From the IMG/VR virus record IMGVR_UViG_3300044611_001318, positions 40,179-104,178 of that record: DNA of 64,000 nucleotides; one strand, given 5' to 3'. Source of the DNA: a virus. Position 1 is the stretch's first letter. Every line of letters begins with the position of its first letter. Under the pieces are notes generated by a model that was given only the letters and a program-made list of their open reading frames with translations, did no database searches and had not been told where the DNA came from. Made by a program: the position numbers and the translations under genes. This document shows positions 19,059 through 41,267 of this stretch, one piece after another.

Positions 19059-20063
19059 ATGAGTTTAGTAACAATAAATAGTTTGGGAGGAATACCTCCT
19101 TATGTTATTTCAGTTTGTGACATATTTCAATACTCTTGTCAAACTGTGACAACAATATATGATTATATTCCACCATCTGTTAGTTTTAATATTCCGAGTC
19201 CATATTCATCGGCTCCAAAAGTTTTAATTAAAATAGTCGATTCTACAGGATGTATTTTCACACAAGAATATATGTGTGTAACACCTACTCCAACCCCAAG
19301 TATTACTCCAAGTGTCACCCCGACAATTTCTTTAACTCCTTCAAATACTCCAACACCAAGTATTACACCATCATTTACACCTACACCGAGTATCACACCA
19401 AGTATTACACCTACACAAACAGTTACACCATCACATACCCCAACACAAACAATTACTCCAACAGTTACAAGAACTCCAACACCTACAGTTACACCTGACA
19501 CTCCTATTTATGCTTATTTGTTCATTGAACCATACTCAGGTTCTGCTAGTGTTGGTTCTTACATGAATTCACTTGGTTCTAATTTTTATGGATTTACAAA
19601 TACTACTAAACCAAGTAGTTCGGCTAGTACATTTGATTTAGACATGAACAAATATGTTAACTTCTCAGGATGGACAACAGGATTATTTCCAAATATTATA
19701 AAACAATTAGTACCATCGGCAAGTAGTGGACTTGATTCATACGGTAACCCATATCTTAAATATAATTTCCCAACAACAAAAGTACCTGAAAATACGGTTG
19801 GATGTAAAGCTTGGTACACTTGGATAATACCAATTAGCAGAACCAATAATCAATACCAAGTTGAGATTGATTTGGGAATAGTTAATCCAAATGTCTTTAC
19901 AAGTGTAAAGACGGAACCGACAATTTACGCTAATACATTTACTTATACAGGTAGTACTATTGCAAATACAACATACAGGGTTTACACAACATACCCATCA
20001 AATACATTTGAATTGGATAATACTTATGACCTTTATTTTAGAGGAAGTAAGGTTGATATATAA
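19059..20063 (+). CDS. Tail adhesin with Thr-Pro linker (fibre unit A)
   Basis: The 334-residue product has three parts. Residues 1-74 form a small beta domain with two internal cysteine pairs ([24 protein letters not shown]) that also occurs alone in the genes at 42186 and, on the minus strand, 49859. Residues about 75-147 are a Thr-Pro-rich linker of imperfect P-S-I-T-P-T units. Residues about 148-334 form a domain ([15 protein letters not shown]) homologous to the C-terminus of the 30276 gene product. The linker is likely extended and is a plausible substrate for O-glycosylation, given the glycosyltransferase genes 5 kb downstream. It forms a unit with the fibre gene that follows. Confidence 0.7.
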
Positions 20064-20072: not shown

Positions 20073-22070
20073 ATGAGTTTCCCATATAAAAATCCAATAT
20101 CGTCTATCCAACTAAATGGAACACAAAGTGTACCAAGAAACAATACGTATGGTACTACTTTCAGTGTTAATAATACGGGTGGTTATATGGAGGTTTTCAG
20201 TTTATCTGACCTTTATTATACAATACCATCGGGAACAACGGGAAGTATTGAATATTCGGGTAATACTATTCCTATTGAGTTTACAAAAGGAACGGGAACA
20301 GCTTGGTCACCTGATGTAATTACTTTGGCTTCAGATAATATTTCATCAGGTAGAAGACGACTTGGTATGTTGGCTTATGTTTATGAGGTTGACCAAGTTT
20401 ACCAATATCATATTAATGATTACGAGACGTTATTTAATGCTGCGACTGCTAGTACGGGATGCGCTCAAGTATCTGATTTTGGAACAACGATAAATAATAA
20501 AACTGCTGCGGGTCAGTCGTTTATTAATTCTTGGACTGCTAACACTATTGAAGATGTTAGTGGTGCAACATATAGTACTGCGGCATGGAGAAAGTTTTCG
20601 ACAGGAACTGGAGGAGGTTCAGGATTTACGTCAGTTAGAATAAATAATGTTAGTCAATTTACGTCATCACCATATAGTTATATTAATTTTAGTGGTGTTA
20701 ATGTTGATATATCATCAGTTGGAAACAATACGATTGTATTATCGGCAAGTACTAGCGGAGGTGGTGGAGGAAGTGGTTCGTCAGGTAGTAGTGGTAGTTC
20801 AGGAACATCGGGAACTAATGGTAGTTCAGGTTCTAGCGGGATTAGTGGTTCTTCAGGTACTAGTGGTAGTTCAGGTTCTGCAGGAACATCGGGGAGTTCG
20901 GGTTCTACAGGTTCGTCAGGAACAAGTGGTAGTAGTGGAACTTCAGGTAGTTCTGGTACATCTGGTTCAAGTGGTAGTAGTGGTTCTTTAGGAACATCAG
21001 GAAGTAGTGGTACCTCAGGTAATGGTGGGTCATCGGGAACAAGTGGTTTAGATGGGATAAGTGGAACGTCAGGTTCTTCAGGGTCAAGTGGAAGTACTGG
21101 CTCTTCAGGAACTAGCGGAACATCAGGTTTAAGTGGTTCTTCAGGAACTTCAGGTAGTTCTGGTACATCAGGTTCATCGGGTAGTTCCGGTTCTGCCGGA
21201 ACATCAGGTACAGGATTTACCACAATCACAAGTCCGGGTAGTAATAGAGTATTAACATCTGATGGGACATCTAATGCTGCGGTTGCTCAGGCTAGAATGA
21301 CTTTTGATGGTACTACATTATCAGTTACAGGTAATACAAGTGTTAATGGTAATATAAGTACTACAGGTGTAACATCTTTTGGTAACGGAACATTTACAAA
21401 GGCGGGGTCAGCTACTGGTGATGTTCTTCTTGATAATAATAGTACAGATACTCCGGGTGTTTTGTTTTATTATGCTAATAATTCAAACTTTGGTATTGAT
21501 AGTTTTAATGGGTCATTTGATGTTCTAAGTGGACAGTTAGTTCGTATCACAAATAATTTAAATGAAGCAGGAGGTGCGGTAAAAATGGCTATAGATACCA
21601 CAGGTAATGTGGTATTTACAGGATTTATAAAGGCTAATGCGTGGAGAGCCGGTCAGGTAATTAACGATATTATTTTGAGTAATACTGAGGTAACTGTTAG
21701 TACTACAACTATAGCTACCAGTAATTCGGATACTGATTTTGTTACTTATAGTTATACACCATTAAGTTCTACAAGTTATTTAGTAATACATTATCATTTA
21801 GCATCTTTTGATTTTACTTCTGGTACAGGTAATGATTCATACATATCTAGAATAAAGGTTGATGGTGGTGAAATAACCTATTCAGTACAAAGCACGGTTA
21901 ATGGATTTCGTACAGGTGTTTTATTTCCATTAACGGGTAGATACACTAACTCTAATACTACCGCAAAATCGATAGTAGTTGCATGTCGTAGAAGTTTTGC
22001 GGATGATAATATCACAATAGTAAATTCATCTACTTCAATGTGGTTAAGAATAACAGAAGTTGCAAGATAA
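20073..22070 (+). CDS. Tail fibre protein with Gly-Ser/Thr collagen-like tract (fibre unit A)
   Basis: The product has 665 residues. Residues 1-225 form an N-terminal domain that is clearly paralogous to that of the giant fibre at 31515: PYKNPISSIQL against PYQNPISASQI, and ISSGRRRLGM against FSSGRRRLGM. Residues about 229-378 are Gly-X-Y triplets (GSSGTSG type). Residues 380-665 are a distal region with TGNTSVNGNISTTG shaft-type repeats and a beta-rich tip ending SMWLRITEVAR. The architecture (docking head, rod, shaft, tip) is that of a phage tail fibre, probably trimeric. The tip is a candidate receptor-binding domain. The gene ends with TAATG shared with the next gene. Confidence 0.8.
   Translation: MSFPYKNPISSIQLNGTQSVPRNNTYGTTFSVNNTGGYMEVFSLSDLYYTIPSGTTGSIEYSGNTIPIEFTKGTGTAWSPDVITLASDNISSGRRRLGMLAYVYEVDQVYQYHINDYETLFNAATASTGCAQVSDFGTTINNKTAAGQSFINSWTANTIEDVSGATYSTAAWRKFSTGTGGGSGFTSVRINNVSQFTSSPYSYINFSGVNVDISSVGNNTIVLSASTSGGGGGSGSSGSSGSSGTSGTNGSSGSSGISGSSGTSGSSGSAGTSGSSGSTGSSGTSGSSGTSGSSGTSGSSGSSGSLGTSGSSGTSGNGGSSGTSGLDGISGTSGSSGSSGSTGSSGTSGTSGLSGSSGTSGSSGTSGSSGSSGSAGTSGTGFTTITSPGSNRVLTSDGTSNAAVAQARMTFDGTTLSVTGNTSVNGNISTTGVTSFGNGTFTKAGSATGDVLLDNNSTDTPGVLFYYANNSNFGIDSFNGSFDVLSGQLVRITNNLNEAGGAVKMAIDTTGNVVFTGFIKANAWRAGQVINDIILSNTEVTVSTTTIATSNSDTDFVTYSYTPLSSTSYLVIHYHLASFDFTSGTGNDSYISRIKVDGGEITYSVQSTVNGFRTGVLFPLTGRYTNSNTTAKSIVVACRRSFADDNITIVNSSTSMWLRITEVAR
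20757..21206 (+). repeat. Gly-X-Y coding repeat, 9-base period, in fibre A
   Basis: About 50 tandem triplet-of-codon units encode Gly-X-Ser/Ala. The synonymous codons are scrambled, so the repeat is strong in protein but weak in DNA. It contains GLDGISGTSG, which recurs near the end of the giant tract at 38074. Confidence 0.85.
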
Positions 22071-23917
22071 TGCCAATCCCACCGAATAAAATAAAATACT
22101 CAACGTCCTTTCATCCTAATACGATTAAAGTTAAGGATTGGGTTTTGGGTATTAATGAAGGTGCGGAATACGGGCCAACAAGTGTTACAGGATTTTGGAA
22201 TTCTATTATACCACCATCAGGTGGTTATACCATGTATGGAAACAAGGCAGTTGCTGGACCATCCATAGTGGTTGCTCAAAACGACTCAGAACTTATTGGT
22301 TTTACACAAGGATTTGCGGGACAAACATTTAATACTGCTAACGAAGCGTTAGGATGGTACACAGGACAAACAGGTCTTATTTGTGTTAACCTTGATTACC
22401 CTGATATTATAACTGACGGATTAACATTATTACTTGATGCTGGTTATGTTTCATCATACCCAAGAAGTGGTTCACGATGGGATGATTTAAGTTTTAGTGG
22501 TAACAACGGAACACTAATTAATACTCCAACATTCAATTCAAGTAACAACGGATACCTCACATTTAACGGAAGTAATCAATATGTTAATGTTGCAGGTACT
22601 CCTGTTGGAATAACGGCATATACCAAAAACATTTGGTTTTATCTAAACTCAACGGCTGATAATAATTTATTAAGTAGTGATACTGGTGGACACTTTATGT
22701 TCTTTGCAGGTTCAAATAAATTATATTGTGGACATTCTGATTGGGGTAATTATACGGTTTTCCCATCGGTCACTAACTTTAGTAATGGGGTGTGGTATAA
22801 TGCGTGTGTAACTTTTGATACCATAAATGGATTTGTATTGTATGTTAATGGTGTTCAGGATAGTACATACACCACTCAAAAGACACCTATAGGGGGTAAT
22901 GGTTCAACAAGGATAGGAGCGTTTGGTGATGGAGGTAATCTATTAAATGGTAGGGTTTCAGTTGCTATGACTTACAATAGAGTATTAAGTTCTACTGAAG
23001 TATTAAAAAATTACAATTCATTTTCGTCAAGATTTATTTCACCATCACCTACTCCGACAACAACAATAACCCCTACACCTACAATGACAGTTACCCCGAC
23101 GATAACTCCAACAAATACTCAAACACCGACAAATACAATTACTCCAACACCTTCCATAACTCCGACTAGAACTGTAACACCTACCCAAACACAGACACCG
23201 ACAAATACGATTACTCCAACACCAACAAGTGTGGGTGGGGTAATTAGTGGTAATTTATTTATGAAGTTAGATGCTACTAATTATGTTAGTGGTACTTGGA
23301 CTGATGAAACGGGAAATGGAAATAATGCAACTATTAATGGTGCCACTTGGTTGTCTACTGACGGAGGTATTTTTGATTTAAATGGGACTAGTAATACAAT
23401 AAGTATACCTCATACTGCTAATCTTAGTTTAAATACTACAACCCAAAGAACAATACAAGTTTGGGTTAAATTTGACGTTTTACCTAGTTCAGGTCAACAA
23501 GTTCCGGTCTTTGGAAAACTATCCAGTTCATTTGGATTTGATGGGTATTGGGGTGGGTTATTCTCGAATGCTGGCGTTGTGAGGGTAGTTACAAATGGAA
23601 CGGGGGTTCAAAAAATATCCGACTCTACGTTAACCGTTTCAATTAATACTTGGTATTTATTTACATTTGTTTCACGAATTACCTCAACTGCTAATACCAC
23701 CAAAGTGTATATTAATAATACCGAATATATAACAACCGCTCATGGTACTGATACATATAGTGAAACTAACCCTCTTTATTTGGGTTACATTGGTACTGGT
23801 ATATCATCACTTTATTTAAATGGTAAAATAGGTGCCTGTTATTTTTATACCACAGGATTAACCGCCAGTGATGTAACAACAAACTATAATAATACTAAAT
23901 CAAAATATGGATTATAA
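22070..23917 (+). CDS. Tail adhesin with two LamG/concanavalin-like domains
   Basis: The product has 615 residues from ATG 22070, which overlaps the preceding stop by one base; an upstream GTG at 22040 is less likely. Residues 1-105 form an N-terminal domain of unknown type. Residues about 110-320 and 395-612 are two laminin-G/concanavalin-A-like jelly rolls, recognisable by GYLTFNGSNQYVNV, VLYVNGVQDSTY and GRVSVAMTYNRVLSSTEV in the first, and TNTISIPHTANLSLN, KVYINNTEY and GKIGACYFYTTGLTASDV in the second. A Thr-Pro-rich linker (residues about 324-386) joins them. Such jelly rolls bind glycans, so this is likely a host-polysaccharide-binding tail protein. Confidence 0.8.
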   Translation: MPIPPNKIKYSTSFHPNTIKVKDWVLGINEGAEYGPTSVTGFWNSIIPPSGGYTMYGNKAVAGPSIVVAQNDSELIGFTQGFAGQTFNTANEALGWYTGQTGLICVNLDYPDIITDGLTLLLDAGYVSSYPRSGSRWDDLSFSGNNGTLINTPTFNSSNNGYLTFNGSNQYVNVAGTPVGITAYTKNIWFYLNSTADNNLLSSDTGGHFMFFAGSNKLYCGHSDWGNYTVFPSVTNFSNGVWYNACVTFDTINGFVLYVNGVQDSTYTTQKTPIGGNGSTRIGAFGDGGNLLNGRVSVAMTYNRVLSSTEVLKNYNSFSSRFISPSPTPTTTITPTPTMTVTPTITPTNTQTPTNTITPTPSITPTRTVTPTQTQTPTNTITPTPTSVGGVISGNLFMKLDATNYVSGTWTDETGNGNNATINGATWLSTDGGIFDLNGTSNTISIPHTANLSLNTTTQRTIQVWVKFDVLPSSGQQVPVFGKLSSSFGFDGYWGGLFSNAGVVRVVTNGTGVQKISDSTLTVSINTWYLFTFVSRITSTANTTKVYINNTEYITTAHGTDTYSETNPLYLGYIGTGISSLYLNGKIGACYFYTTGLTASDVTTNYNNTKSKYGL

Positions 23918-23922
23918 ATAAA

Positions 23923-24786
23923 ATGGCAACATCACGACCTTTTGCATATAATACAGGCTCAACAATTTCAGGGACAGAACAAGTTGGAAGTATTGCTATT
24001 GGATACCCAACAAGTGGTTTTACATCCACAGGTTTAAGATGGTGGAATGGGCCTGATGAAGATTTGGGATATGTTATTGCTCACACCGTACCGTCAGGAA
24101 CACAACCAAATCCTGTTGGAGTTCCTGCTTATATCGGTTTTTGGAGAACACCAAGTAAGACAGATAATAACTTTATTAGTTTATCTCAGTATGTATCAAG
24201 TTTTACCGGAACACCACAAACATTTGCAAGTGCTTCAGCGGCTAAGACATGGTTAAACTCGGCGGGATATTGGACATCTTGGGATTTAAGTTATACTGCA
24301 GGAGTATTTAAAACAACTTATAGTGGGTACTTTAATGATAATGTTAATTTCTTTGCAACCGCAACTCCCGCATCAGTAGGTGGAAATCCTGCGACTTCAG
24401 TACAAACCACCGAGATAACAGAACCCCCAACCAGTGACGGTGAGAATTTCAGTTGTCAATGGTTAGGTTATTTCAAACCAACTACTACAGAAACTTACAC
24501 ATTCTTTACTTCATCTGATGATGCTTCCTATGTTTGGGTTGGTAGTAATAGTATTTCAGGATTTACAACAACAAACTCAACAGTTAATAACGGTGGATTA
24601 CATGGGACACAAGAACGTTCAGGTACAATTGCCTTAACTGCTGGTACATATTATCCGTTACGAGTACAATTTGGAGAACTAAGTGGTGGTGACGTGATGA
24701 CTTTTAGTTATTCAACTCCGACTATAACAAAAACAACCAACGTAACAGGTTTAATTTTTTATAATTTGGTAACAAGCGGATTTTAA
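23923..24786 (+). CDS. Tail adhesin with PA14-like domain
   Basis: The product has 287 residues. Residues 1-130 are an N-terminal domain (AYNTGSTISGTEQVGSIAIG) of a type frequent in tail-associated proteins. Residues about 150-285 match a PA14/GLEYA-type carbohydrate-binding fold: CQWLGYFKPTTTETYTFFTS, SSDDASYVWVG, then LTAGTYYPLRVQFGELSGGD. PA14 domains bind sugars in adhesins and glycosidases. It follows the LamG adhesin by 5 bases and is the last gene before the glycosyltransferase operon. It probably forms another receptor- or glycan-binding tip. Confidence 0.75.
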   Translation: MATSRPFAYNTGSTISGTEQVGSIAIGYPTSGFTSTGLRWWNGPDEDLGYVIAHTVPSGTQPNPVGVPAYIGFWRTPSKTDNNFISLSQYVSSFTGTPQTFASASAAKTWLNSAGYWTSWDLSYTAGVFKTTYSGYFNDNVNFFATATPASVGGNPATSVQTTEITEPPTSDGENFSCQWLGYFKPTTTETYTFFTSSDDASYVWVGSNSISGFTTTNSTVNNGGLHGTQERSGTIALTAGTYYPLRVQFGELSGGDVMTFSYSTPTITKTTNVTGLIFYNLVTSGF

Positions 24787-24812
24787 AAACTAAAACTTAT
24801 TAATTTATTTCT

Positions 24813-24842
24813 TTAATTTTTATTTAAAATTAATACTTTTTG
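24813..24842 (+). terminator. Weak AT-only hairpin with T run, possible terminator
   Basis: TTAATTTT (24813-24820) can pair with AAAATTAA (24826-24833) around a 5-base loop, followed by TACTTTTTG. The stem has no G-C pairs, so termination would be weak. It lies in the 70-base gap between the adhesin genes and the glycosyltransferase genes; nothing else is evident in this gap. Confidence 0.25.
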
Positions 24843-24856
24843 TGTAAAACATTTAC

Positions 24857-26101
24857 ATGAAAATTTTTATACAAGTTGCCTCTTACAGAGACCCCCAACT
24901 AATCCCAACTATACAGTCAGCATTGGAAAATGCTAAACGACCTGAAAACTTAGTTTTTGGTATTGCTCGTCAGTTTCATCCTGATGATAATTTTGATAAT
25001 TTAGATGAATATAGGAATGATGAAAGATTTAGAATAATCGATATTCCATACACCGAATCCAAAGGAGCTTGTTGGGCAAGAAATCAAATACAACAAGTAT
25101 ATGGTAAGGAAACTTACACTCTTCAAATTGACTCACACATGAGGTTTGCTCAAAATTGGGATGATGAGATGATTAAGATGGTTAAACAACTTCAAAAGAA
25201 AGGATATAAGAAACCTTTATTAACAGGTTATGTTTCATCCTTTGACCCTGACAATGACCCCAACCTACGTGTTAACGAACCATGGAGAATGGCGTTTGAT
25301 AGATTTATTCCTGAAGGTGCGGTTTTCTTTTTACCTGAAACAATTCCTGGTTGGCAAAATTTAACTGAACCTGTTACCGCAAGATTTTACTCGGCTCACT
25401 TCTGTTTTACTCTTGGAAAATTTGCTAAAGAAGTTCAACACGACCCTGAGTTTTATTTTCATGGTGAAGAGATTTCAATCGCTGCAAGAGCATACACTCA
25501 TGGATATGATTTATTCCACCCACATAAAGTTTTAATTTGGCATGAATATACTCGTAAGGGTAGAACTAAACAATGGGATGACGATAAACAATGGGTTGAT
25601 AAGAATAATTTTGCTCATAAGAAAAATCGTTCTCTATTCGGTATGGATGGTGAGGAAGATATGAATCACGGGAAGTATGGGTTTGGTAAAGTTAGAACTT
25701 TAAGAGATTATGAAAAATATTCAGGTCTTTTATTTTCAAAGAGAGCCGTTCAACAATATACGTTAGATAAAGGTTATCCACCAAATCCAAATAACTTCAA
25801 TTCAGAAGAAGAATGGTTAAAGTCATTTACATCGGTATTCAAACATTGTATTGATATTGGGTTTACTCAAGTACCTGAAAAGGATTATGACTTTTGGGTT
25901 GTTGCGTTCCATAATGAATTAGATGAAACCATTTACAGACAAGATGCTGATAAAGGTGAGGTTGATAGAATGTTAAGAGACCCTGATGGTTATTGTAAAG
26001 TTTGGAGAGAGTTCTTAACTGATTCAAAACCTAAATATTGGGTTGTTTGGCCTCACTCGGAATCTAAAGGATGGTGTGATAGAATAACAGGAAATTTATA
26101 A
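24857..26101 (+). CDS. Glycosyltransferase, GlcNAc-transferase (Skp1/Gnt1-like) family
   Basis: The protein has 414 residues. The N-terminus (IFIQVASYRDPQLIPTIQSA, then KGACWARNQIQQVYGKETY and LQIDSHMRFAQNWDDEMI) is characteristic of the family that includes the Dictyostelium Skp1 hydroxyproline GlcNAc-transferase (Gnt1) and bacterial relatives. It is a GT-A fold enzyme in which the D-S-H motif coordinates metal and sugar nucleotide. Further hallmarks are FYFHGEEISIAARAYTHGYD and IWHEYTR. It would transfer a sugar from a nucleotide donor to a protein or glycan in the cytoplasm. It is the first of five glycosyltransferase genes with gaps or overlaps of at most a few bases, sandwiched between tail-fibre genes, which suggests a virion or fibre substrate. 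Confidence 0.85.
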   Translation: MKIFIQVASYRDPQLIPTIQSALENAKRPENLVFGIARQFHPDDNFDNLDEYRNDERFRIIDIPYTESKGACWARNQIQQVYGKETYTLQIDSHMRFAQNWDDEMIKMVKQLQKKGYKKPLLTGYVSSFDPDNDPNLRVNEPWRMAFDRFIPEGAVFFLPETIPGWQNLTEPVTARFYSAHFCFTLGKFAKEVQHDPEFYFHGEEISIAARAYTHGYDLFHPHKVLIWHEYTRKGRTKQWDDDKQWVDKNNFAHKKNRSLFGMDGEEDMNHGKYGFGKVRTLRDYEKYSGLLFSKRAVQQYTLDKGYPPNPNNFNSEEEWLKSFTSVFKHCIDIGFTQVPEKDYDFWVVAFHNELDETIYRQDADKGEVDRMLRDPDGYCKVWREFLTDSKPKYWVVWPHSESKGWCDRITGNL

Positions 26102-26104
26102 GAT

Positions 26105-26815
26105 ATGAAATTTACATTTGCTACTTTTTGTTTTGGTGAAAGATATTATAACCAAGTTAATAGATTTATTGGTGATATCGTAGAATCGGATTATAAAACA
26201 AATTTGGTTGTTATTACCGATGACCCAAGTAAGATTAATAATCAAGAATTTGTTCACACTTTCAACATTAATGATTTTAATCCAAATTATTTGGAGTATG
26301 CTAAAAACTACTATGATTTTGATTTTTCAGTTAAGAGATATTCGTTAAGAGCTGCTTTAAGTATTGGTTTTACTAAAATGATTTTAGTTGATTGTGATAT
26401 GAGAGTTAACCCATCTTTCTTTAATGAAGAAAAGATTTTAGGAGCGTTTGATGAGAATTGTTTATCAGGGCCAGTAACATATAATTTTAACGAACAAGTT
26501 CATACCAATAGTGAATTAGGTAGACGATTACTTGAGTATGAAAAGTATTTCAATCATGAGGTTAATAAAGATAAGTTGGAGGTTATGCCTGAAGATTGTA
26601 TCCAATACTTGAGTATTGATGAAGATAAGTTTAATAGTTTTTTAGATACTTGGGACAAGTGTATCGAATATAAAAAAGAAAAAGGTTTGAGAAACATACC
26701 CGCAGGTAACATAGACGAGATGTGTTTCTCGGCGTTATCTAATGGAATTGAAATAAAAAATAACGCTTATAAAGCATCAAATATAATATACGCAGAACAT
26801 GACAAATGGTACTAA
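26105..26815 (+). CDS. GT-A type glycosyltransferase
   Basis: The protein has 236 residues. It opens with MKFTFATFCFGERYYNQVN, typical of small glycosyltransferases with an N-terminal nucleotide-binding beta strand. It contains MILVDCDMRVNPSFF at about residues 97-111, where DCD fits the DxD metal and sugar-nucleotide motif. The late segment AGNIDEMCFSALSNGIEI resembles the acceptor-side region of GT-A enzymes. Donor and acceptor are unknown. It overlaps the next gene by 17 bases, so the operon is translationally coupled. Confidence 0.7.
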   Translation: MKFTFATFCFGERYYNQVNRFIGDIVESDYKTNLVVITDDPSKINNQEFVHTFNINDFNPNYLEYAKNYYDFDFSVKRYSLRAALSIGFTKMILVDCDMRVNPSFFNEEKILGAFDENCLSGPVTYNFNEQVHTNSELGRRLLEYEKYFNHEVNKDKLEVMPEDCIQYLSIDEDKFNSFLDTWDKCIEYKKEKGLRNIPAGNIDEMCFSALSNGIEIKNNAYKASNIIYAEHDKWY

Positions 26816-27653
26816 AATAATTTCAGCAATTTATGAATTAAAATATGTTGAAGGGATTAATAGTGAAAGATATAAAAATTTTCCATTATTGGTTGCAACG
26901 ATTAAAAACATAATTTATCCTGAATATCGTTACGTAATTTATACTGACCAAAATTCATATGATAAGTTTAATTTAAAGTATGAATTTAATTTCCCAAATG
27001 TTGAATTTAAATTTAAAGAATTAAATACATCTGAAACTTGTGAATTAATTGACAGAATTAGAACTCAAGAATTATCAGGTGGAATTAACTATGATAGAAT
27101 TTATTGTGTAAACAATTATTTGGAAGTTGTTTTAAATAAACTTCAATTCTTAATTGATGAGTCACATGATTGTGATAATATCTTTTGGATTGATGCTGGT
27201 TTGATTGGAACATCTTGTCATGACGGGTGGAGAGATTATATGGCTCCGTTAATTAACTCAAAAAACTTTTTGGATAAGGTGGTTGATAAGATAAATCAAC
27301 ATGGATTTATCCATTTAAAAGGTAATTCAATTGTCATGAATTATGAAACGGTTGCTAAGTTTAACGACCTATTTGGTGTTGAATTAAAGGTTGTTCCTGG
27401 ATGTCTATTTGGTGGAACATCAGAAAAAGTTAGACATATTTTAGACGGATATTTAGACATTTTTAATCAATACTTAACCACACATAACCAACTTATTAGT
27501 GAACAAGAGGTTCTTACGGCTATTACAGGTAAACATTCGGATGAATGTCACGCTTTTGAATTTGGTGATTGGTTAGACTTACAAAAAGCGTTTTTAGACA
27601 TTTTAGACATTTATGATGAGACAAAATATGTAAGGGAGAAGTGTTATGTTTAG
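26799..27653 (+). CDS. HtrL/YibB-like putative glycosyltransferase
   Basis: The product has 284 residues. It carries the segments YRYVIYTDQNSYDKF and NIFWIDAGLIGT, and later GCLFGGTSEKV, which match the HtrL/YibB family associated with surface-polysaccharide synthesis loci. W-I-D-A-G-L occupies the place of the DxD motif. The same signature occurs in the N-terminal half of the fifth gene of this operon (FWIDAGLTNT), so the two are paralogous. Its role is inferred from family and context. Both ends overlap neighbouring genes by 8-17 bases. Confidence 0.7.
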   Translation: MTNGTKIISAIYELKYVEGINSERYKNFPLLVATIKNIIYPEYRYVIYTDQNSYDKFNLKYEFNFPNVEFKFKELNTSETCELIDRIRTQELSGGINYDRIYCVNNYLEVVLNKLQFLIDESHDCDNIFWIDAGLIGTSCHDGWRDYMAPLINSKNFLDKVVDKINQHGFIHLKGNSIVMNYETVAKFNDLFGVELKVVPGCLFGGTSEKVRHILDGYLDIFNQYLTTHNQLISEQEVLTAITGKHSDECHAFEFGDWLDLQKAFLDILDIYDETKYVREKCYV

Positions 27654-28209
27654 TCTTAACATTGTTTGTACTTCAATTGGGAGAGAAACTCTACCAAGAT
27701 TAATTGAGTCATTCAAAGACCAATTAGACCCAACAGATATTTTTACAATAATCTCAGATATTAATCACGACTTTGTTTCAGAAGTATTATCAAGATATGA
27801 GTTTAAATTCAAAGTTAATCACATATTAAATCAAGGGGAACAAAAATGGAAATACGGACATCCGTTAATTAATGAAAACATTAATTCATTAGAAGGTGAT
27901 TTTATAATGTTTGCCGATGATGATGATAGATACACTGAAGACGCATTTAAAGTAATCAAAGAAACTATTAAAGATAAAAACAAATTATACATATTCAAAC
28001 ACAATTGGTTAGGTGATATTAATTGGAGATTAAAAGATTTCACAAGAGGTAATGTAGGGAAATGTATGGGAGTGATTCCAAACACACATAATTTACCGAT
28101 GTTCCAAGAAGATGTTTTTGGGGATGTTATTTTTTATGAAGAGATAGGTCAAATGTTTGAAAGTGAATTTGTTGATTACATAATCTATAAAGTTAGACAT
28201 ACGGAATGA
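27646..28209 (+). CDS. Family 2-like glycosyltransferase
   Basis: This 187-residue protein is short for a GT2 enzyme. It shows LNIVCTSIGRETLPRLIESF at the N-terminus and GDFIMFADDDDRYTEDAF at about residues 84-101, where the acidic cluster serves as the DxD metal-binding motif of a GT-A fold. The acceptor-binding C-terminal part is minimal. Start ATG 27646 overlaps the previous gene by 8 bases, and its stop overlaps the next start (ATGA). Confidence 0.75.
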   Translation: MFSLNIVCTSIGRETLPRLIESFKDQLDPTDIFTIISDINHDFVSEVLSRYEFKFKVNHILNQGEQKWKYGHPLINENINSLEGDFIMFADDDDRYTEDAFKVIKETIKDKNKLYIFKHNWLGDINWRLKDFTRGNVGKCMGVIPNTHNLPMFQEDVFGDVIFYEEIGQMFESEFVDYIIYKVRHTE

Positions 28210-29876
28210 GTAATATTACATTAGTTACAGGATTGTGGAATATTGGAAGAGAAAATCTTGAAGAAGGTTGGTCTCGTTCTTTTTCACATTATTTAGAAAA
28301 ATTTGAACAACTATTAAAAGTTGAAGAAAACTTAATAATTTTTGGTGAAAAGGAATTGGAGGAATTTGTTTGGGAAAGAAGAGACCAAAGTAATACCCAA
28401 TTTATTTTAAGAGATAAGAGTTGGTTTGTTGAAAATGACTTTTACAATAAAATACAAGAAATTAGAAATAATCCTGAATGGTATAATCAATCAGGGTGGT
28501 TAAAAGAATCAACACAAGGTAGATTGGAAATATACAATCCACTTGTTATGTCAAAAATGTTTATATTAAATGATGCAAGGATTTTTGATAAGTTTAATTC
28601 AGAGTTTTTATTTTGGATTGACGCTGGACTTACAAATACTGTTCACCCCGGATATTTCACACATGATAAGGTGTTAGATAATTTAAGTAAGTATATAGAT
28701 AAGTTTACATTTGTTTGTTTTCCATACGATGCAAGTAATGAGATACACGGATTTTCATATCCAAAGATTAATCAGTGGGCTGAAGATGATGTAAAAAAAG
28801 TTGCTCGTGGTGGATTTTTTGGAGGTCCTAAAGAAACCATATCACAGATGAATGGTGAATACTATAACCTATTGAATGATACACTATCAAGTGGGTACAT
28901 GGGAACGGAAGAGTCAATATTTTCAATAATGGTTTATAAGTTAAGTGAATACATAAATTATTTTGAAATTGAATATAATGGTTTATTTGGGAAATTCTTT
29001 GAGGATTTAAAAGATGATGTTTTAGTTAAAAAGACAGAGTTTGTTAAAATTCAAAATGATTTAGATATAGATAAAGTTGCGTTGTATGTAATAACATTCA
29101 ATTCACCAAAACAATTTGAAACATTAATTAAATCTATGATTGAATATGATAGGGATTTCTTGGAAAAACCAAAGAAATTTTTATTGGATAACTCTACAGA
29201 TTTATCAACAACTGAAGAATACTTAAAACTTTGTAAAGAATATGACTTTGAACATATTAAAAAAGATAACATAGGTATTACAGGTGGAAGACAATGGACT
29301 GCGGAACACTTTGATGAAACGGGGTTGGACTATATGTTATTCTTTGAGGATGATATGTTTTTTTACTCACAAAAAAATGAAGTGTGTAGAAATGGGTTTA
29401 ACAGATATGTAAGTAATCTATATCAAAAAAGTTTAGAGATAGTTAACAAAGAAAACTTTGATTTTTTAAAATTAAATTTTTCAGAGTTTTATGGTGATAA
29501 TAGTACTCAGTGGAGTTGGTATAATGTTCCACAAAATTTCAGAGAACAACATTGGCCAAAAAATCCAAGATTACCTCAACAGGGTTTAGACCCAAATGCT
29601 CCAAAAACAAAATTCAACGAGATTAAAACACATAAAGGTTTACCATACGCTTCAGGTGAAATTTATTTGTGTAACTGGCCAATAATCCTTTCAAAAAGTG
29701 GGAGTTATAAATGTTATTTGGAAACAAAATATCAACACCCATATGAACAAACTTTAATGTCTCATAACTTCCAAAACACAATTAAAGGTAAATTAAAACC
29801 AGGTATTTTATTACTCACTCCTACCGAACATGATAGATTTGAACATTATGATAGTAATTTAAGAAAAGAATGTTGA
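28206..29876 (+). CDS. Bifunctional glycosyltransferase: HtrL/YibB-like plus GT2-like domain
   Basis: The product has 556 residues and looks like a fusion. Residues 1-270 match the HtrL/YibB type (LVTGLWNIGRENLEEGWSRS, EFLFWIDAGLTNTVHPGY, ARGGFFGGPKETI). Residues about 290-556 are a second GT-A domain (VALYVITFNSPKQFETLIKS, DNIGITGGRQWTAEHF, YMLFFEDDMFFY), where EDD fits the metal-binding motif. Two catalytic domains in one chain suggest sequential addition of two sugars. It closes the five-gene glycosyltransferase operon that starts at 24857. The following BppU-like gene has its own TATTTAT motif, consistent with a separate transcript. Confidence 0.78.
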   Translation: MSNITLVTGLWNIGRENLEEGWSRSFSHYLEKFEQLLKVEENLIIFGEKELEEFVWERRDQSNTQFILRDKSWFVENDFYNKIQEIRNNPEWYNQSGWLKESTQGRLEIYNPLVMSKMFILNDARIFDKFNSEFLFWIDAGLTNTVHPGYFTHDKVLDNLSKYIDKFTFVCFPYDASNEIHGFSYPKINQWAEDDVKKVARGGFFGGPKETISQMNGEYYNLLNDTLSSGYMGTEESIFSIMVYKLSEYINYFEIEYNGLFGKFFEDLKDDVLVKKTEFVKIQNDLDIDKVALYVITFNSPKQFETLIKSMIEYDRDFLEKPKKFLLDNSTDLSTTEEYLKLCKEYDFEHIKKDNIGITGGRQWTAEHFDETGLDYMLFFEDDMFFYSQKNEVCRNGFNRYVSNLYQKSLEIVNKENFDFLKLNFSEFYGDNSTQWSWYNVPQNFREQHWPKNPRLPQQGLDPNAPKTKFNEIKTHKGLPYASGEIYLCNWPIILSKSGSYKCYLETKYQHPYEQTLMSHNFQNTIKGKLKPGILLLTPTEHDRFEHYDSNLRKEC

Positions 29877-29905: not shown

Positions 29906-30274
29906 ATGGAATTTTTTATTAACAAAGGTGCAACACTGCCTGTTCTTAAAATGCAAGTGGTTAAAGATGGTATTGCTGACATAACAGAGTTTATGTCATT
30001 AATAGAAAACTCGTTGATTTATTTTTCCATGATAGATGTTAAAACGGGAGGTTACAAGATTCTGAATAAGAAAGGAGGGTTTGTTGAAAAGACATTTATT
30101 GACCCAAACGCTGAGACAGAGTACTATGTTTATTATAAATTCACTTCAAGCGATACAAGTAGAGAGGGACTTTATGAAGGAGAGTTTGTTTTTATCACTG
30201 ATACAGGAACTTATATTTTACCAATCAGAGAAAAACTTACGATAAAAATTGGTAATAGTTACGTATCTATTTAA
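29906..30274 (+). CDS. Small tail/baseplate protein, BppU N-terminal-like domain
   Basis: The product has 122 residues. The whole protein corresponds to one beta domain of the form F-x-x-x-[GN]-x-[ST]-L-P-V at the start, a central YYVYYKFTSSDTSREGLYEG, and a closing ILPIREKLTIKIGNS. This layout resembles the N-terminal domain of BppU-type baseplate proteins, which anchor adhesins. It is paralogous to the N-terminus of the next gene (MEFFINKGATLPVL against MEWFIKKNSTLPVF), so it looks like a stand-alone copy of the docking domain. The pair is separated by one base. Confidence 0.6.
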   Translation: MEFFINKGATLPVLKMQVVKDGIADITEFMSLIENSLIYFSMIDVKTGGYKILNKKGGFVEKTFIDPNAETEYYVYYKFTSSDTSREGLYEGEFVFITDTGTYILPIREKLTIKIGNSYVSI

Positions 30275-30275
30275 T

Positions 30276-31484
30276 ATGGAATGGTTTATTAAGAAAAATT
30301 CAACGTTACCAGTTTTCCAAGTTGAGATATCAAAAGACGGAAGAAGTGATTTTGGTTTAGATGAAAATATTTCGGGTAATACAATTTTAATTTCGGTATA
30401 TGATGAAGTTAATAAGAAATATATTGTAGCGTCTAAAGAATGTTATATTACAACAAGTGCGTCTACTGTTAATCCTTTAGATATTACTTATTATGTAAAC
30501 TATCAATTTACAAGTAGAGAAACTAAAAATGAGGGTAAGTTTTTAGTTCAGTTTTTAAAACAATCATCTCAGGGTATTGTTATTATACCATTACCTCAAA
30601 AAATTTATGTAAGTGTTCTTAGTAGTTTTAGTTTAAACTCTTACTCTTATCCGACTAATAATCCTTACATTATTGATAGACCATGTTGTAACGCACCAGC
30701 TCTACCTGCAACACCTACACCAACACCATCTATTACTCCAAGTGTTACTCCAACAATGTCTTTAACACCATCACTAACTCCAACTCTCACACCTACAACA
30801 ACTACAACACCTACATTTACTCCTACACCATCTATTACAACACCACAATATTATGCTTATGTATTCGCAGAACCACAAGATTCTTCGGCAAGTGGTTCGT
30901 TGTATGGATTAGGAAGTTATATGTATTACTTATCGGATGGTATAACACCTGATACTAATGTTAATTGGTACGGATGGGGTAACTCGGGAGCTCTTCCATT
31001 ACCAACAAATCCAAACTACAGTTATATGATGAACAAATACTCATCATACTCAGGATTTACAGGTGGAACAGGAAACTTTGTTAAACCTACAGACTTAAAA
31101 GGTGCGTTAAATCAATTCCCAAATACTATCAATGATAGTTTTGGATGTTTAATTAACCAATACACTTTTGAAACAATAGAAGTTAATAATAGTGATATTA
31201 ACACTAGTTTACAGTACATGTATACGATTTGGATACCACTTGATGGTGTCGGAGGAACTTTAAATAATATGAGTGTAAATGTTGGTTATCAATCACAACC
31301 TTGTGACTTTGATATTTTAGCAACTCCTGACCCTAAAATTTCGGTTGGGGATATTACAATAACTCCAGGTGGAGCGATACCTGCGGGAACTTATAGAGTA
31401 TTATACTTATCAAACGATGGATTGTTACCTCCAAAACTTCCTGATAATAACAATTATTATTTCAAAGGGGTGTATAAAACCTAA
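30276..31484 (+). CDS. Tail adhesin: BppU-like domain, Thr-Pro linker, adhesin domain (fibre unit B)
   Basis: The product has 402 residues from ATG 30276; an upstream TTG at 30249 would overlap the preceding gene and is less likely. Residues 1-130 are the docking domain shared with the preceding gene. Residues about 146-190 are a Thr-Pro linker ([16 protein letters not shown] type). Residues 190-402 are homologous to the C-terminal domain of the 19059 gene (YAYVFAEP against [21 protein letters not shown] against [13 protein letters not shown]). Together with the giant fibre gene that follows, it repeats the order of unit A (19059 then 20073). Confidence 0.7.
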   Translation: MEWFIKKNSTLPVFQVEISKDGRSDFGLDENISGNTILISVYDEVNKKYIVASKECYITTSASTVNPLDITYYVNYQFTSRETKNEGKFLVQFLKQSSQGIVIIPLPQKIYVSVLSSFSLNSYSYPTNNPYIIDRPCCNAPALPATPTPTPSITPSVTPTMSLTPSLTPTLTPTTTTTPTFTPTPSITTPQYYAYVFAEPQDSSASGSLYGLGSYMYYLSDGITPDTNVNWYGWGNSGALPLPTNPNYSYMMNKYSSYSGFTGGTGNFVKPTDLKGALNQFPNTINDSFGCLINQYTFETIEVNNSDINTSLQYMYTIWIPLDGVGGTLNNMSVNVGYQSQPCDFDILATPDPKISVGDITITPGGAIPAGTYRVLYLSNDGLLPPKLPDNNNYYFKGVYKT

Positions 31485-31514: not shown

Positions 31515-34500
31515 ATGGCAATACCGTATCAAAATCCAATAAGTGCGTCCCAAATTACAGGACCTTTCAGTGTAGCGAGAACAAGTCCATACGGAACCAA
31601 TTTTAATGTTTTAAATGTTGGTGGATGGCAAGAGGCGGCATACCTTACTAATTTAGGTTTAACATTTAGTGGGCAAGGACAACAACAATTAAGTGTTAAT
31701 AATATACCTATTAATATTAACATTGGTAACGGTACATTTTCTCCAACATATTTAACTTTAAATTCTGACAATTTCTCTTCGGGTAGAAGAAGATTGGGTA
31801 TGATTGTTTGGGTTAATGAAACTGAAACGGCATATCAATATCAAATAGACAATTACAATGATTTATGGGATGCTGCAGTAAGTGCTAATTCTGTAACTCA
31901 ATTATCTTACGAAACTATTATAAAGAATAATACACCTGAAGGTCAGGCATTTATTAATGCTTGGACAGGCTCAACTATTGAAGGTGTTAGTGGTGTTACA
32001 AGAGAAAATGCGAGATGGAGAGTTTTTGCTCAAGGTACTGAATTAACGGGTGGTACTTATTTTTCAGGTACAAGTACATTAGAATTATATAATAGTGATG
32101 GAACTATTATTTCTGTAACAGGTATTACGGCATCTGGTTCTAATGGTAGTTCTGGAACATCAGGTTCTGCGGGTACAAGTGGTTCTTCAGGAAGTGCTGG
32201 TTCTTCAGGTAACTCTGGTTCTTCAGGTTCAGCAGGTACAAGTGGAACTTCAGGTAGTTCTGGTTCATCAGGTAGTTCTGGTTCTGCGGGTACATCAGGA
32301 ACAAGTGGAACGTCTGGTTCATCAGGGGATAGCGGTTCTTCGGGAAGTGCTGGAACTAGCGGTAGTTCAGGTAGTGCTGGAACATCAGGTATTAATGGTG
32401 TTGATGGTGCAAGTGGAACATCAGGTACAAGTGGTTCATCAGGACTATCAGGTACTGGAGGTTCTTCGGGTACATCAGGAACATCTGGCTCCTCAGGTTC
32501 ATCAGGTTCTTCAGGAAGTGTGGGAACAAGTGGAACGTCAGGTTCTTCGGGAAGTTCTGGTACAAGCGGAACTTCAGGAACTTCAGGTTCAAGTGGTTCA
32601 TCGGGAAGTTCAGGTTCAAGTGGTTCATCGGGTACATCAGGTAGTACTGGTACTAGTGGTAGTAGTGGAACAAGCGGAACGTCGGGTTCATCAGGTTCTG
32701 CGGGAAGTAGTGGTTTATCAGGTAGTGTTGGAACATCTGGCTCAAGTGGTAGTTCAGGTAGTTCTGGTTCATCAGGTACATCTGGCTCAAGTGGTAGCTC
32801 TGGTTCAACAGGTTCGTCAGGTAGTAGTGGTATAACTGGGTCTTCAGGTACGAGTGGTAGTTCTGGCACATCAGGTTCATCTGGTAGTTCAGGTTCTTCA
32901 GGTTCATCTGGTAGTTCAGGTTCTTCAGGTAGTACTGGTTCATCAGGAACTAGCGGAACATCAGGAACATCAGGTACAAGTGGTAGTTCAGGTTCTACAG
33001 GAACATCGGGTTCTACAGGAACATCGGGTTCATCAGGTAGTAGTGGCTCAAGTGGAAGTTCAGGATTGACAGGTTCATCAGGAACATCGGGTTCATCAGG
33101 GACATCGGGTTCATCAGGTAGTTCTGGTTCAAGTGGTAGTAGCGGAAGTACAGGGTCTTCGGGCACAAGTGGTAGTTCTGGTACATCAGGTTCATCAGGA
33201 AGTTCAGGTTCATCAGGTTCTAGCGGTAGTGTTGGAACTTCGGGAACAAGTGGTTCAAGTGGAAGTTCAGGTTCTTCAGGAAGTGTAGGAACATCAGGTA
33301 CAAGTGGAAGTTCAGGTTCGTCTGGCTCAAGTGGAAATACAGGTTCAAGTGGAACGAGTGGTTCATCAGGTACATCTGGCTCAAGTGGTAGTTCAGGTTC
33401 GTCTGGCTCAAGTGGTTCAAGTGGAAGTTCAGGTTCATCTGGAAGTGTAGGAACATCAGGTACAAGTGGTAGTTCAGGTTCTTCAGGTAGTTCAGGTGTT
33501 AATGGTTCTTCAGGGACTAGTGGTAGTTCGGGAACATCTGGTTCTTCAGGAAGTTCGGGTTCATCAGGTTCTAGTGGTAGTTCAGGAACATCTGGCTCAA
33601 GCGGGTCTTCTGGTTCAAGTGGAAGTACTGGTTCTTCAGGAAGTGCAGGTACATCGGGTAGTGTAGGAACTAGCGGTAGTTCTGGTTCATCTGGTTCTTC
33701 AGGTAGTACTGGCTCAAGTGGTACTTCAGGTTCTTCGGGAAGTTCTGGTACTAGTGGTTCATCAGGTAGTGTAGGTACTAGTGGTTCATCAGGTAGTTCT
33801 GGTTCAAGTGGTAGTAGCGGAAGTACAGGGTCTTCTGGTACAAGTGGGAGCTCAGGAACATCTGGTACAAGCGGTAGTTCTGGGTCATCTGGTTCAGTTG
33901 GTACAAGCGGTTCATCAGGTAGTGTTGGAACATCTGGTTCATCAGGTTCTGTTGGTACTTCAGGAACATCGGGTTCATCAGGTAGTACTGGTTCAAGTGG
34001 AAGTTCAGGAAGTAGTGGTAGTGTAGGAACAAGTGGTTCTTCAGGGACATCTGGCTCAACAGGTACTTCAGGAACATCAGGTTCAAGTGGGTCTTCAGGT
34101 AGTTCGGGTTCATCAGGAAGTTCAGGTACAAGCGGAACATCAGGTTCAGTAGGAACAAGTGGTTCATCGGGAAGTTCAGGGTCAACAGGAACTTCAGGTT
34201 CAAGTGGGTCTTCAGGTAGTTCAGGAAGTAGCGGAACATCTGGTTCTAGTGGAAGTGTTGGAACTTCTGGTACATCAGGAACAAGTGGTTCATCGGGAAG
34301 TTCTGGTTCTGCCGGTACAAGTGGAAGTGTAGGAACAAGTGGTACTTCAGGTTCATCTGGCTCAAGTGGAAGTTCAGGTTCAACAGGTAGTTCAGGTACT
34401 AGCGGTTCATCTGGAAGTTCTGGTTCTGCAGGTACAAGTGGAAGTTCTGGTTCTTCAGGTAGTACGGGTTCAAGAGGAACTAGCGGAACATCAGGAAGTT

Positions 34501-37500
34501 CTGGTTCTGTTGGAACTAGTGGAACGTCTGGTTCAGTAGGAACTAGCGGAACATCTGGAACAAGTGGTTCATCAGGTTCTAGCGGTAGCGCTGGAAGCTC
34601 AGGAACGTCAGGTTCTAGCGGTAGCACAGGTTCAAGTGGTTCTACTGGCACGTCAGGTTCTTCAGGAACAAGTGGTTCTGTAGGTACAAGCGGAACATCT
34701 GGTTCCTCAGGAAGTGTAGGTACTTCAGGTACTAGTGGAAGCTCAGGAAGTGTAGGAACATCTGGTTCAAGTGGTACTACTGGTACCTCAGGAACATCAG
34801 GTAGTTCAGGTTCTAGCGGAAGTTCAGGTTCAAGTGGAACTAGTGGTAGTTCAGGAAGTTCTGGTTCATCGGGTAGTAGCGGTAGTTCTGGTAGTGTAGG
34901 AACATCTGGTTCTTCAGGAAGTTCTGGTTCAAGTGGTTCATCCGGAAGTTCAGGTTCTACAGGTTCAAGAGGAACATCGGGTACTTCAGGAACTAGCGGT
35001 TCAAGTGGAAGTACAGGAACTAGTGGTACATCAGGTTCAACGGGGACTTCAGGAACAAGTGGTTCAACTGGAACATCAGGTACAAGTGGAAGTACAGGGT
35101 CTTCAGGAAGCTCTGGTACGTCGGGTAGTGTAGGTACTAGCGGTAGTTCAGGCTCTAGCGGAAGTACAGGAACTAGTGGAACCTCTGGTTCAACAGGGAC
35201 TAGCGGTTCATCAGGTAGTTCAGGTTCAAGTGGAAGTTCAGGTAGTAGTGGTAGCGTTGGAACTTCTGGTACATCAGGTTCAAGTGGTTCTTCAGGAAGT
35301 GCAGGTTCTAGTGGAAGTACTGGAACCTCAGGAACATCAGGTAGTTCTGGTTCTTCAGGTAGTTCAGGTTCAAGTGGTAGTGTTGGAACATCAGGTTCAT
35401 CGGGTAGTGTAGGTACTAGCGGTTCTTCTGGTTCAAGTGGAAGTTCAGGTTCTAGCGGAAGTACAGGGTCAAGCGGAACTAGTGGTAATTCAGGTTCGTC
35501 TGGTTCAAGTGGAAGTTCAGGTTCATCTGGAAGTGTAGGAACAAGTGGAACCTCAGGTTCAGTAGGTACAAGTGGTACATCAGGAAGTTCAGGCTCAAGT
35601 GGTAGTACGGGTTCATCTGGTACTAGCGGCTCTTCGGGAAGTACTGGGTCATCTGGAAGTTCAGGTTCAACAGGAACTAGCGGTTCTTCAGGAACATCAG
35701 GTAGTAGCGGTTCTAGTGGTAGTGCTGGAACAAGTGGTAGTTCTGGTTCTGTTGGTACATCTGGGTCAAGCGGAAGTAGTGGTTCATCGGGAAGTGTAGG
35801 CACATCCGGTTCTTCAGGCTCTAGCGGTAGTGCTGGAAGTTCAGGAAGTGTTGGTACATCAGGGACTAGTGGTAGTTCAGGTTCTTCTGGTTCAAGTGGT
35901 AGTGTTGGTACATCAGGTACTAGCGGTTCATCAGGTACTAGCGGTTCATCAGGGTCAAGCGGAACTAGCGGTAGTTCAGGTTCTAGCGGTTCTTCAGGAA
36001 GTTCTGGGTCATCTGGCTCTTCAGGTAGTACAGGTTCAAGAGGAACTAGCGGTACTTCAGGAACTAGTGGTAGTGTAGGTACATCCGGTTCTTCAGGTAG
36101 TTCGGGAACATCAGGAAGTAGTGGAAGTTCAGGTTCTGCAGGTACAAGTGGAAGTGTAGGAACATCTGGAACTTCTGGTTCAAGTGGGTCATCAGGTTCA
36201 AGTGGTAGTGTTGGAACTAGCGGTTCATCAGGAACAAGTGGTTCGTCAGGTTCTAGCGGTAGTGCTGGAAGCTCAGGAAGTACTGGTTCATCAGGTTCTG
36301 CGGGAAGTGCTGGTACATCAGGGGTTAATGGTTCTTCAGGAACATCAGGTTCTGCTGGCTCAAGTGGAAGTTCAGGTTCTTCAGGTAGTTCGGGTTCAGT
36401 AGGTACAAGCGGAACTTCAGGTTCATCAGGTAGTGCTGGCTCGTCAGGGTCTAGCGGTTCTGTTGGTACTTCAGGTAGTAGTGGAACATCTGGAAGCTCT
36501 GGCTCAAGTGGTAGTGCGGGTTCATCAGGGAGTAGTGGAACTTCAGGTTCATCAGGAAGTTCAGGTTCAAGTGGTAGTACGGGGTCTTCAGGAAGTTCTG
36601 GTTCAACAGGTTCTAGAGGAACTAGCGGAACATCAGGTTCATCTGGAAGTGTTGGTACTTCAGGAACGTCAGGTTCAGTAGGTTCGTCTGGTTCTTCAGG
36701 AACTTCAGGTTCAGTAGGTACTAGTGGAACATCTGGAAGCTCTGGCTCAAGTGGTAGTGCGGGGTCATCAGGGAGTACTGGTACAAGTGGAAGTTCGGGT
36801 TCAACTGGTACTTCAGGTTCAAGTGGAAGTAGTGGCTCATCAGGTTCTTCAGGGAGTACTGGTACAAGTGGAACATCAGGTTCTAGTGGAAGTAGTGGTA
36901 GTTCAGGGTCATCTGGTTCTGCAGGTACATCAGGAAGTAGTGGAAGTTCAGGGTCTAGCGGTAGTTCTGGTTCATCAGGTACATCGGGAACTAGCGGAAG
37001 TTCAGGAACTTCAGGTAGTAGTGGGTCATCAGGTTCAACGGGTAGTTCAGGAAGTAGTGGAACAAGTGGTTCATCTGGTACTTCAGGTTCATCTGGCTCA
37101 AGTGGTAGTACGGGTTCTTCAGGAAGCTCAGGCTCAAGCGGAAGTTCTGGTTCAACAGGTTCTAGAGGAACAAGTGGAACTTCTGGTTCGTCAGGAACTA
37201 GCGGAACGTCAGGAACATCAGGCTCAAGCGGAAGTGTTGGAACATCTGGTTCGTCAGGAAGTACAGGAACATCAGGTAGTGCTGGTTCTTCTGGCTCAAG
37301 TGGTAGTTCAGGTTCAAGTGGAAGTACTGGAACATCAGGTTCATCAGGTTCTAGCGGTAGTACTGGAAGCTCAGGAACGTCAGGTTCTGTAGGTACAAGC
37401 GGGACATCAGGAACTTCGGGAAGTACTGGTTCTAGTGGTAGTTCAGGAAGTTCTGGTTCATCGGGTAGTACAGGTACTTCAGGAAGCTCAGGTTCAAGTG

Positions 37501-40372: not shown

Positions 40373-40384
40373 TTTGTATGTAAT

Positions 40385-41257: not shown

Positions 41258-41267
41258 AAATTTAATT

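Follow-up and report, generated by a model that had tools for sequence, protein, structure and literature searches.

Glycosyltransferases of the PF11397 (GT60) family are polypeptide GlcNAc (N-acetylglucosamine)-transferases, amongst them Dictyostelium Gnt1 and the mucin enzymes of Trypanosoma cruzi, whose substrates are threonine-rich mucins. For phages, glycosylation of the virion is known from few described cases. At least two glycoproteins are reported for the virion of phage XacN1 in the available text of PMC5852040, and that of PMC12619734 gives four core glycosyltransferase families for the Moraphages. The locus considered here is a cassette of five glycosyltransferase genes, GT1 to GT5, within a 64,000 nt stretch (the window; positions 40,179 to 104,178) of the 104,178-base IMG/VR virus record IMGVR_UViG_3300044611_001318. 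Its first gene, GT1, belongs to PF11397, and its last, GT5, fuses an HtrL_YibB domain to a second GT-A domain; the locus takes the form of a cassette in which these two ends are fixed and the middle is swappable, and it occurs alongside proteins with Thr-Pro linkers. No description of such a fixed-end GT1–GT5 cassette, or of Thr-Pro linker glycosylation by phages, was found in the open-licence literature.

Relatives of GT1 were collected from IMG/VR (400 confirmed stretches, 80 kept), and the ends of the cassette were counted over the window and 208 further loci (209 in total, numbered with the prefix L) from three overlapping scans in which contigs recur, which makes the 92 distinct GT1 sequences a sounder basis for counting. 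Open reading frames (ORFs) were called mechanically, with antisense ORFs of <250 aa skipped. The gene directly after GT1 is often unrelated to GT2 of the window, whereas the cassette closes with the GT5 fusion, which is terminal in 190 of the 190 cassettes that are complete in the fetched stretch; the incomplete ones comprise six with GT5 cut at the edge and 13 that run off it. Six loci that ran off in a first walk all have GT5 in their records. Across 53 records tested, GT5 is present in 36, namely all 35 that are positive for GT1 and one that is negative, the latter being a contig whose edge falls in GT5, which begins 20 bases from the contig end. Similarly, amongst 50,697 phage records GT1 is found in only three (XacN1, RAS14 and CM1), and these same three are the only ones to harbour a full-length GT5. 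In XacN1 the GT1 homologue is ORF334, and a carbamoyltransferase and two further genes separate it from GT5. Because no gene at all intervenes between GT1 and GT5 in loci L278–L280, the two together are suggested to be the minimal core of the system. Downstream, a homologue of the window's 122 aa protein occurs within three ORFs after GT5 in 157 cassettes (immediately next in 145) out of the 174 where at least one ORF can be seen, a further 16 cassettes having nothing visible there; amongst the remaining 17, a Thr-Pro protein of 700–950 aa comes next in 12, and antisense ORFs alone are seen in five.

The exchange of the middle is most apparent in comparisons between close relatives. The window and its sister phage L007 are 94.7 % identical over positions 23918–26104, that is, to three bases past the GT1 stop, after which no similarity is detected across 26105–28205 (GT2–GT4), and identity of 94.6 % resumes at 28206, the GT5 start codon. 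L012 displays the same swap between flanks of 92.5 and 91.8 % identity, and L006 shows the same pattern as L007; the window's own middle is retained in L005, L008, L011, L013, L015 and L026. Amongst 29 pairs of GT1 proteins with at least 95 % identity, 16 have the same middle and nine have no middle family in common, and the 190 complete cassettes present 58 middle architectures built from 103 middle families (at 40 % identity). The exchange of whole blocks amongst near-identical phages points to difference itself being selected for. The cassettes of L054, L055, L071, L076 and L077 contain very large middle genes (1,067 aa) or recurrent neighbours (145 + 455 + 220 aa), the latter suggesting sub-modules that move together.

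With regard to content, the 361 middle proteins reduce to 144 representatives (60 % clusters), of which the first 25 of 53 families listed were tallied. Among the matches listed are FkbM methyltransferase (11), GT25 (nine), GT10 (nine), GT11 (three), PLOD-type glycosyltransferase (three), DegT aminotransferase (two) and other methyltransferases, alongside single matches to UDP-galactopyranose mutase, UDP-GlcNAc 2-epimerase and carbamoyltransferase. Fucosyltransferases, methyltransferases, carbamoyltransferases and sugar-nucleotide enzymes are thus all represented, and no flippase, polymerase or lipid-sugar transferase family appears within those 25. Such content fits a complex and decorated glycan whose assembly involves no lipid-carrier machinery encoded by the cassette itself. 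The main rival to a virion-directed role is raised here, in that GT25, GT10, FkbM, UDP-galactopyranose mutase and UDP-GlcNAc 2-epimerase also occur in polysaccharide loci: the enzymes might instead remodel host envelope polysaccharide during infection, masking receptors so as to exclude other phages or free progeny, with variability tracking the host surface. The HtrL/YibB gene, which we take to lie in the lipopolysaccharide core region of Escherichia coli, also counts towards this, as does the reading of polymorphic cyanophage glycosyltransferase clusters as host-surface modification by Iyer et al. (available text of PMC7824862). Against it, a hydropathy scan finds a candidate membrane helix, and a marginal one, in two of the 144 middle proteins, and host-surface remodelling does not predict fibre genes after the cassette, nor the tracking of Thr-Pro linkers in distant phages described below; GT1–GT5 also adjoins Thr-Pro proteins in two cellular genomes. 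On balance we regard it as unlikely.

The ORF calls reproduce exactly the coordinates and strand of the five adjacent genes of an earlier note on this DNA (Table 1); they are separated by one 3 nt gap and then overlap by 17, 8 and 4 nt. That note had also described the first gene as Gnt1-like, which is borne out by a PF11397 match far over the Pfam cut-off (E-value 1.4e-68; 232.4 bits against a cut-off of 21). Residues D92, S93 and H94 are invariant in 20 of 20 aligned GT1 proteins and form a DxH-type motif as in GT60, which we take to be the metal motif of PF11397/GT60; a PDB sequence search with GT1, both as a single sequence and as a profile, gave no match. GT2 and GT3 have no match in Pfam. 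For GT2, a predicted model (predicted TM-score, pTM, 0.90) has a GT-A fold, closest to GT6 enzymes, and D96 and D98 are invariant, whilst GT3 proteins of several relatives share 26–28 % identity with the N-terminal half of GT5. GT4 matches PF00535 at 2.3e-5. Residues 3–254 of GT5 match PF09612 (HtrL_YibB) at 5.2e-13, with 49.7 bits over a cut-off of 24.1, and the protein scores 60.6 bits on the NCBIfam equivalog TIGR02192, below its cut-off of 264.9; the NCBIfam scan returned nothing over cut-off for any of the five. Its predicted model (mean pLDDT, a per-residue confidence, 82.7; pTM 0.59) has two GT-A domains, the first HtrL_YibB-like, in keeping with the two-domain fusion proposed earlier, and the cassette thereby totals about six GT-A-type domains, as the note had estimated. 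Top Foldseek ranks for this model are enzymes with two GT-A domains (LH3, LARGE1, chondroitin polymerase and COLGALT1); in a second structural comparison (Z about 13–16), residues 1–268 align with GT6 enzymes and residues 283–556 with B4GALNT1, GnT-I, POMGNT1 and GalNAc-T2. Purifying selection is strong on all five genes (omega 0.03–0.06 against L005 and L008).

The C-terminal half of GT5 brings in a second alternative, namely that the enzymes glycosylate hypermodified phage DNA, with an outer glycan that varies to escape restriction. This half is weakly like phage hydroxymethylcytosine (HMC) glucosyltransferases (phrog_842, 5e-5) and TAGT PF20691 (E-value 0.031; 14.6 bits, below the 27.5 cut-off), and DNA glucosylation is raised by the Moraphage authors in connection with their glycosyltransferase genes (available text of PMC12619734). 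Thymidylate-synthase-family genes, however, occur in eight of 21 records and are all best matched in PHROGs by thymidylate synthase rather than hydroxymethylase, no hydroxymethylase gene being found amongst these partly incomplete records. TET/JBP matches number none in the 21, many of which are incomplete, a weak result as controls gave no match either. DNA as the target seems very improbable to us.

The association with Thr-Pro linkers was assessed using a strict DNA pattern for TP[ST]xTP[ST]xTP, which hits the window 20 times and never occurs in 100 shuffled versions. Every GT1-positive record tested carries it, 22 of 22 in a first set and 17 of 17 in a second (39 of 39 overall, these being different records with much redundancy, including near-identical ones), with 29 matches in XacN1 and 25 in RAS14. 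It is absent from all 11 control phages lacking GT1, including RaK2-like relatives of XacN1; these were hand-picked, not drawn randomly, and their lack of GT1 is according to the scan of 50,697 phage records. In the reverse direction, viral contigs were chosen by a four-repeat Thr-Pro pattern alone, and 27 of the 80 loci listed were used, comprising all 17 records of at least 100 kb and ten of 59–92 kb, with L454, L500 and L503 (>59 kb) left out for no set reason, as well as shorter records. PF11397 is present in 14 of these 27 records (59–311 kb), and in 12 of the 17 of at least 100 kb. For contigs chosen by an arbitrary 14-mer, the 50 longest of 80 were tested, 11 of them of at least 55 kb; PF11397 occurs in one of the 50, the contig of the sister phage L007, and in none of the 11 (size-matched contrast, Fisher p 0.0026). 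Given 14 of 27 against one of 50, and that 12 GT1 proteins fetched from the Thr-Pro-selected records have just 35–78 % identity to that of the window, Thr-Pro linkers are predictive of GT1 far outside the circle of close relatives of the window. Proximity follows the same trend: Thr-Pro-rich ORFs make up 16 of the 56 that adjoin a set of 16 dereplicated viral cassettes and 3 of the 66 lying at a greater distance (p 3e-4), and around 61 dereplicated genome-assembly loci the corresponding figures are 10 of 223 and 6 of 524 (p 0.0095). Facing GT5 of XacN1 on the opposite strand is a block that includes annotated baseplate wedges and a 3,313 aa protein whose Thr-Pro linker lies close to the protein's end; a 3,138 aa protein of RAS14 is similar to that protein.

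The pairing extends to cellular genomes. In L278 (a metagenome-assembled genome, MAG, of Saprospiraceae) and L284 (Jiulongibacter sediminis), GT1 and GT5 lie divergent from a protein with a long Thr-Pro region. Both Thr-Pro proteins have an RR-type N-terminal signal, which we presume to be of the twin-arginine kind, and that of L278 also possesses a Por secretion tail; the L284 locus additionally holds a carbamoyltransferase and an FkbM domain. Some ostensibly cellular loci look like phage contigs binned in MAGs, namely L286 (7502–9265) and L308 (3321–5246), where GT1 has Thr-Pro proteins nearby, that of L286 carrying a crAss muzzle C-terminal domain. In L301 (Paraburkholderia, 7720–11383) a PF11397 gene lies after a fimbrial adhesin that has an MrkD-like receptor domain and after an ImpA_N gene of the type VI secretion system (T6SS), and in L293 (Neisseriaceae, 8714–11353) one follows a fimbrial protein; in these settings the enzyme may modify fimbrial adhesins. 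The L301 setting therefore indicates that enzymes of the GT1 family do not go with Thr-Pro proteins alone.

For the observed gene order, exchange of the middle, Thr-Pro association, families and folds, and purifying selection, we favour, with modest confidence, cytoplasmic protein O-glycosylation, by a large aquatic tailed phage, of its own fibre and adhesin proteins, mainly on Thr/Ser of Thr-Pro linkers and without a lipid carrier. What follows on the acceptor, the sugars, the order in which the enzymes act and the benefit is our inference. GT1 would attach the first sugar, probably an N-acetylhexosamine, to Thr/Ser of the linkers in the cytoplasm; the two domains of GT5 would build or extend a conserved core; and the middle enzymes (GT2–GT4 in the window) would add a strain-specific outer part, such that exchange of whole middle blocks could switch the fibre glycan type, much like O-antigen. 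Candidate benefits are protease protection of flexible linkers, stiffening, and altered fibre binding or recognition by others.

Several observations weigh against this explanation. Within the window's lineage, 15 of 18 records negative for GT1 also have the pattern, leaving a weak contrast there (22 of 22 against 15 of 18, p 0.08), with the GT1-negatives being mostly short fragments, one of which begins within GT5. Moreover, 13 of the 27 Thr-Pro-selected records lack GT1; an adjacent Thr-Pro ORF is found in just 11 of the 16 dereplicated viral loci and in two of nine dereplicated cellular GT1 + GT5 loci, the other seven having none; and GT1 relatives without GT5 occur in other settings, such as the T6SS and fimbrial loci. 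In the available text of PMC5852040, the XacN1 glycoproteins are not linked to ORF334 or to Thr-Pro proteins, and no visible tail fibres are reported.

The earlier note had proposed that the phage glycosylates its own fibres, as BclA-type collagen-like fibres are glycosylated, pointing to Gly-X-Y rods and to hydroxyproline; it called for a survey of gene context, and held that relatives keeping the cassette without such fibres would speak against it. Fibre self-glycosylation remains the best reading, although the rod and hydroxyproline arguments fail. The Gly-Ser/Thr rod pattern is present in 11 of 24 GT1-bearing records and absent in 13, which rules out the rods as a general acceptor and leaves the BclA analogy without its rod partner; the survey thus upholds Thr-Pro linkers (39 of 39 carriers), to which the note had likewise drawn attention, and not rods. 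The P4H (prolyl 4-hydroxylase)-type oxygenase PF13640 is found in three of 23 carriers, and the hydroxyproline route is likewise rejected, though all three have rods. The thousands of Ser/Thr residues ascribed to the rods were overstated, rodS and rodL together having 1,581 Ser + Thr, and rodL has eight Pro in 2,435 residues. Thr-Pro linkers consequently replace Gly-X-Y rods and hydroxyproline as the likely acceptor. A third alternative is that the virion is glycosylated mainly on the rods, the capsid or the 122 aa protein, for which one may cite the many Ser/Thr of the window's rods, the status of the 122 aa homologue as commonest neighbour of the cassette, and the mycobacteriophage capsid and tail-tube glycans cited in the available text of PMC12619734. 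We consider this quite improbable, given the carriers without rods and that the large protein near the cassette of XacN1 and RAS14 has a Thr-Pro linker, the rod pattern being found nowhere in either complete genome.

Table 1. Cassette genes and neighbouring features of the window
Feature	Position	Strand	Basis
GT1, fixed first gene: PF11397 (GT60-like) glycosyltransferase, invariant D92-S93-H94	24857..26101	+	profile match
GT2, variable middle: GT-A fold nearest GT6, invariant D96xD98	26105..26815	+	predicted model, alignment
GT3, variable middle: related to HtrL-like half of GT5	26799..27653	+	sequence comparison
GT4, variable middle: small GT2-family enzyme (PF00535)	27646..28209	+	profile match
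GT5, fixed last gene: HtrL_YibB domain fused to second GT-A domain	28206..29876	+	profile match, model
Exchangeable block, replaced in L006, L007 and L012; both flanks 92–95 % identical	26105..28205	+	alignment
122 aa protein related to TPfib2 N-terminus	29906..30274	+	sequence comparison
TPfib2, fibre protein with Thr-Pro linker (pattern 30711–30793), candidate acceptor	30249..31484	+	
TPfib1, paralogue with Thr-Pro linker (pattern 19281–19411), candidate acceptor	19059..20063	+	
Laminin-G-like protein with Thr-Pro linker, candidate acceptor	22040..23917	+	
PA14/GLEYA-domain protein just upstream of cassette, probable fibre part	23923..24786	+	
rodS, short Gly-Ser/Thr rod protein	20073..22070	+	
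rodL, long Gly-Ser/Thr rod protein, no constant cassette partner	31515..38822	+	
Fourth Thr-Pro-rich gene (824 aa, 179 Thr, 88 Pro), candidate acceptor	47380..49854	-	

The cassette does lie between two fibre units, as had been noted before, being flanked by the paralogous pairs TPfib1/rodS and TPfib2/rodL (likeness of 32 % and 44–49 %). The count of Gly-Ser/Thr repeats in the rodL gene varies widely between close relatives, with 633 in the window and 354–407 in L003, L008 and L014, where the fetched stretches may cut the gene short. Further along, positions 39470–42176 hold three adjacent paralogous Gly-rich proteins of ~300 aa each, homologues of which are found directly upstream of GT1 in L029, L044, L047 and L055.

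A broader proposition can only be tentatively entertained, and we would hesitate to commit to it either way: that this is a general, lipid-independent Thr-Pro O-glycosylation system with a fixed GT1–GT5 core and swappable outer modules, setting a per-strain fibre glycotype in distant groups of large phages and common to bacteria that coat secreted Thr-Pro proteins, and thus a phage counterpart of O-antigen switching. The literature found assigns no role to the Thr-Pro linkers of aquatic phages. If true, one widespread locus would explain both virion glycosylation and these linkers and would predict acceptor sites; around a hundred mostly uncharacterised enzyme families would be building diverse glycans on a simple repeat; and phages would switch their surface glycan via cassette exchange. 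GT1 and GT5 offer a marker pair for finding such phages.

Comparison with described systems places the locus close to several of them. GT1 resembles GT60/PF11397 enzymes in its profile score and invariant DSH, and differs in being carried by a phage, in its coupling to GT5 and a variable middle, and in seemingly having no need of hydroxyproline, its donor and acceptor being putative. GT5 is HtrL/YibB-like in its N-terminal half, over the PF09612 cut-off and below that of the equivalog, and departs from that family in its fusion to a second GT-A domain. With mycobacteriophage virion glycosylation (Freeman 2023, as cited in the available text of PMC12619734) and the XacN1 glycoproteins (that of PMC5852040), the system has in common phage glycosyltransferases thought to modify the virion; in contrast to these, the cassette is multi-gene, has fixed ends with an exchangeable middle, and is tied to Thr-Pro linkers, its candidate acceptors. 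The cyanophage clusters (Iyer 2021) are also polymorphic phage glycosyltransferase clusters, but are there read as modifying host-surface polysaccharide, and the GT1–GT5 frame is not named in the available text of PMC7824862. Finally, bacterial loci for O-antigen, capsule and flagellin glycosylation likewise possess conserved outer genes, a replaceable middle and decorated glycans, whereas the cassette is phage-borne, almost without membrane proteins, and adjoins fibre genes.

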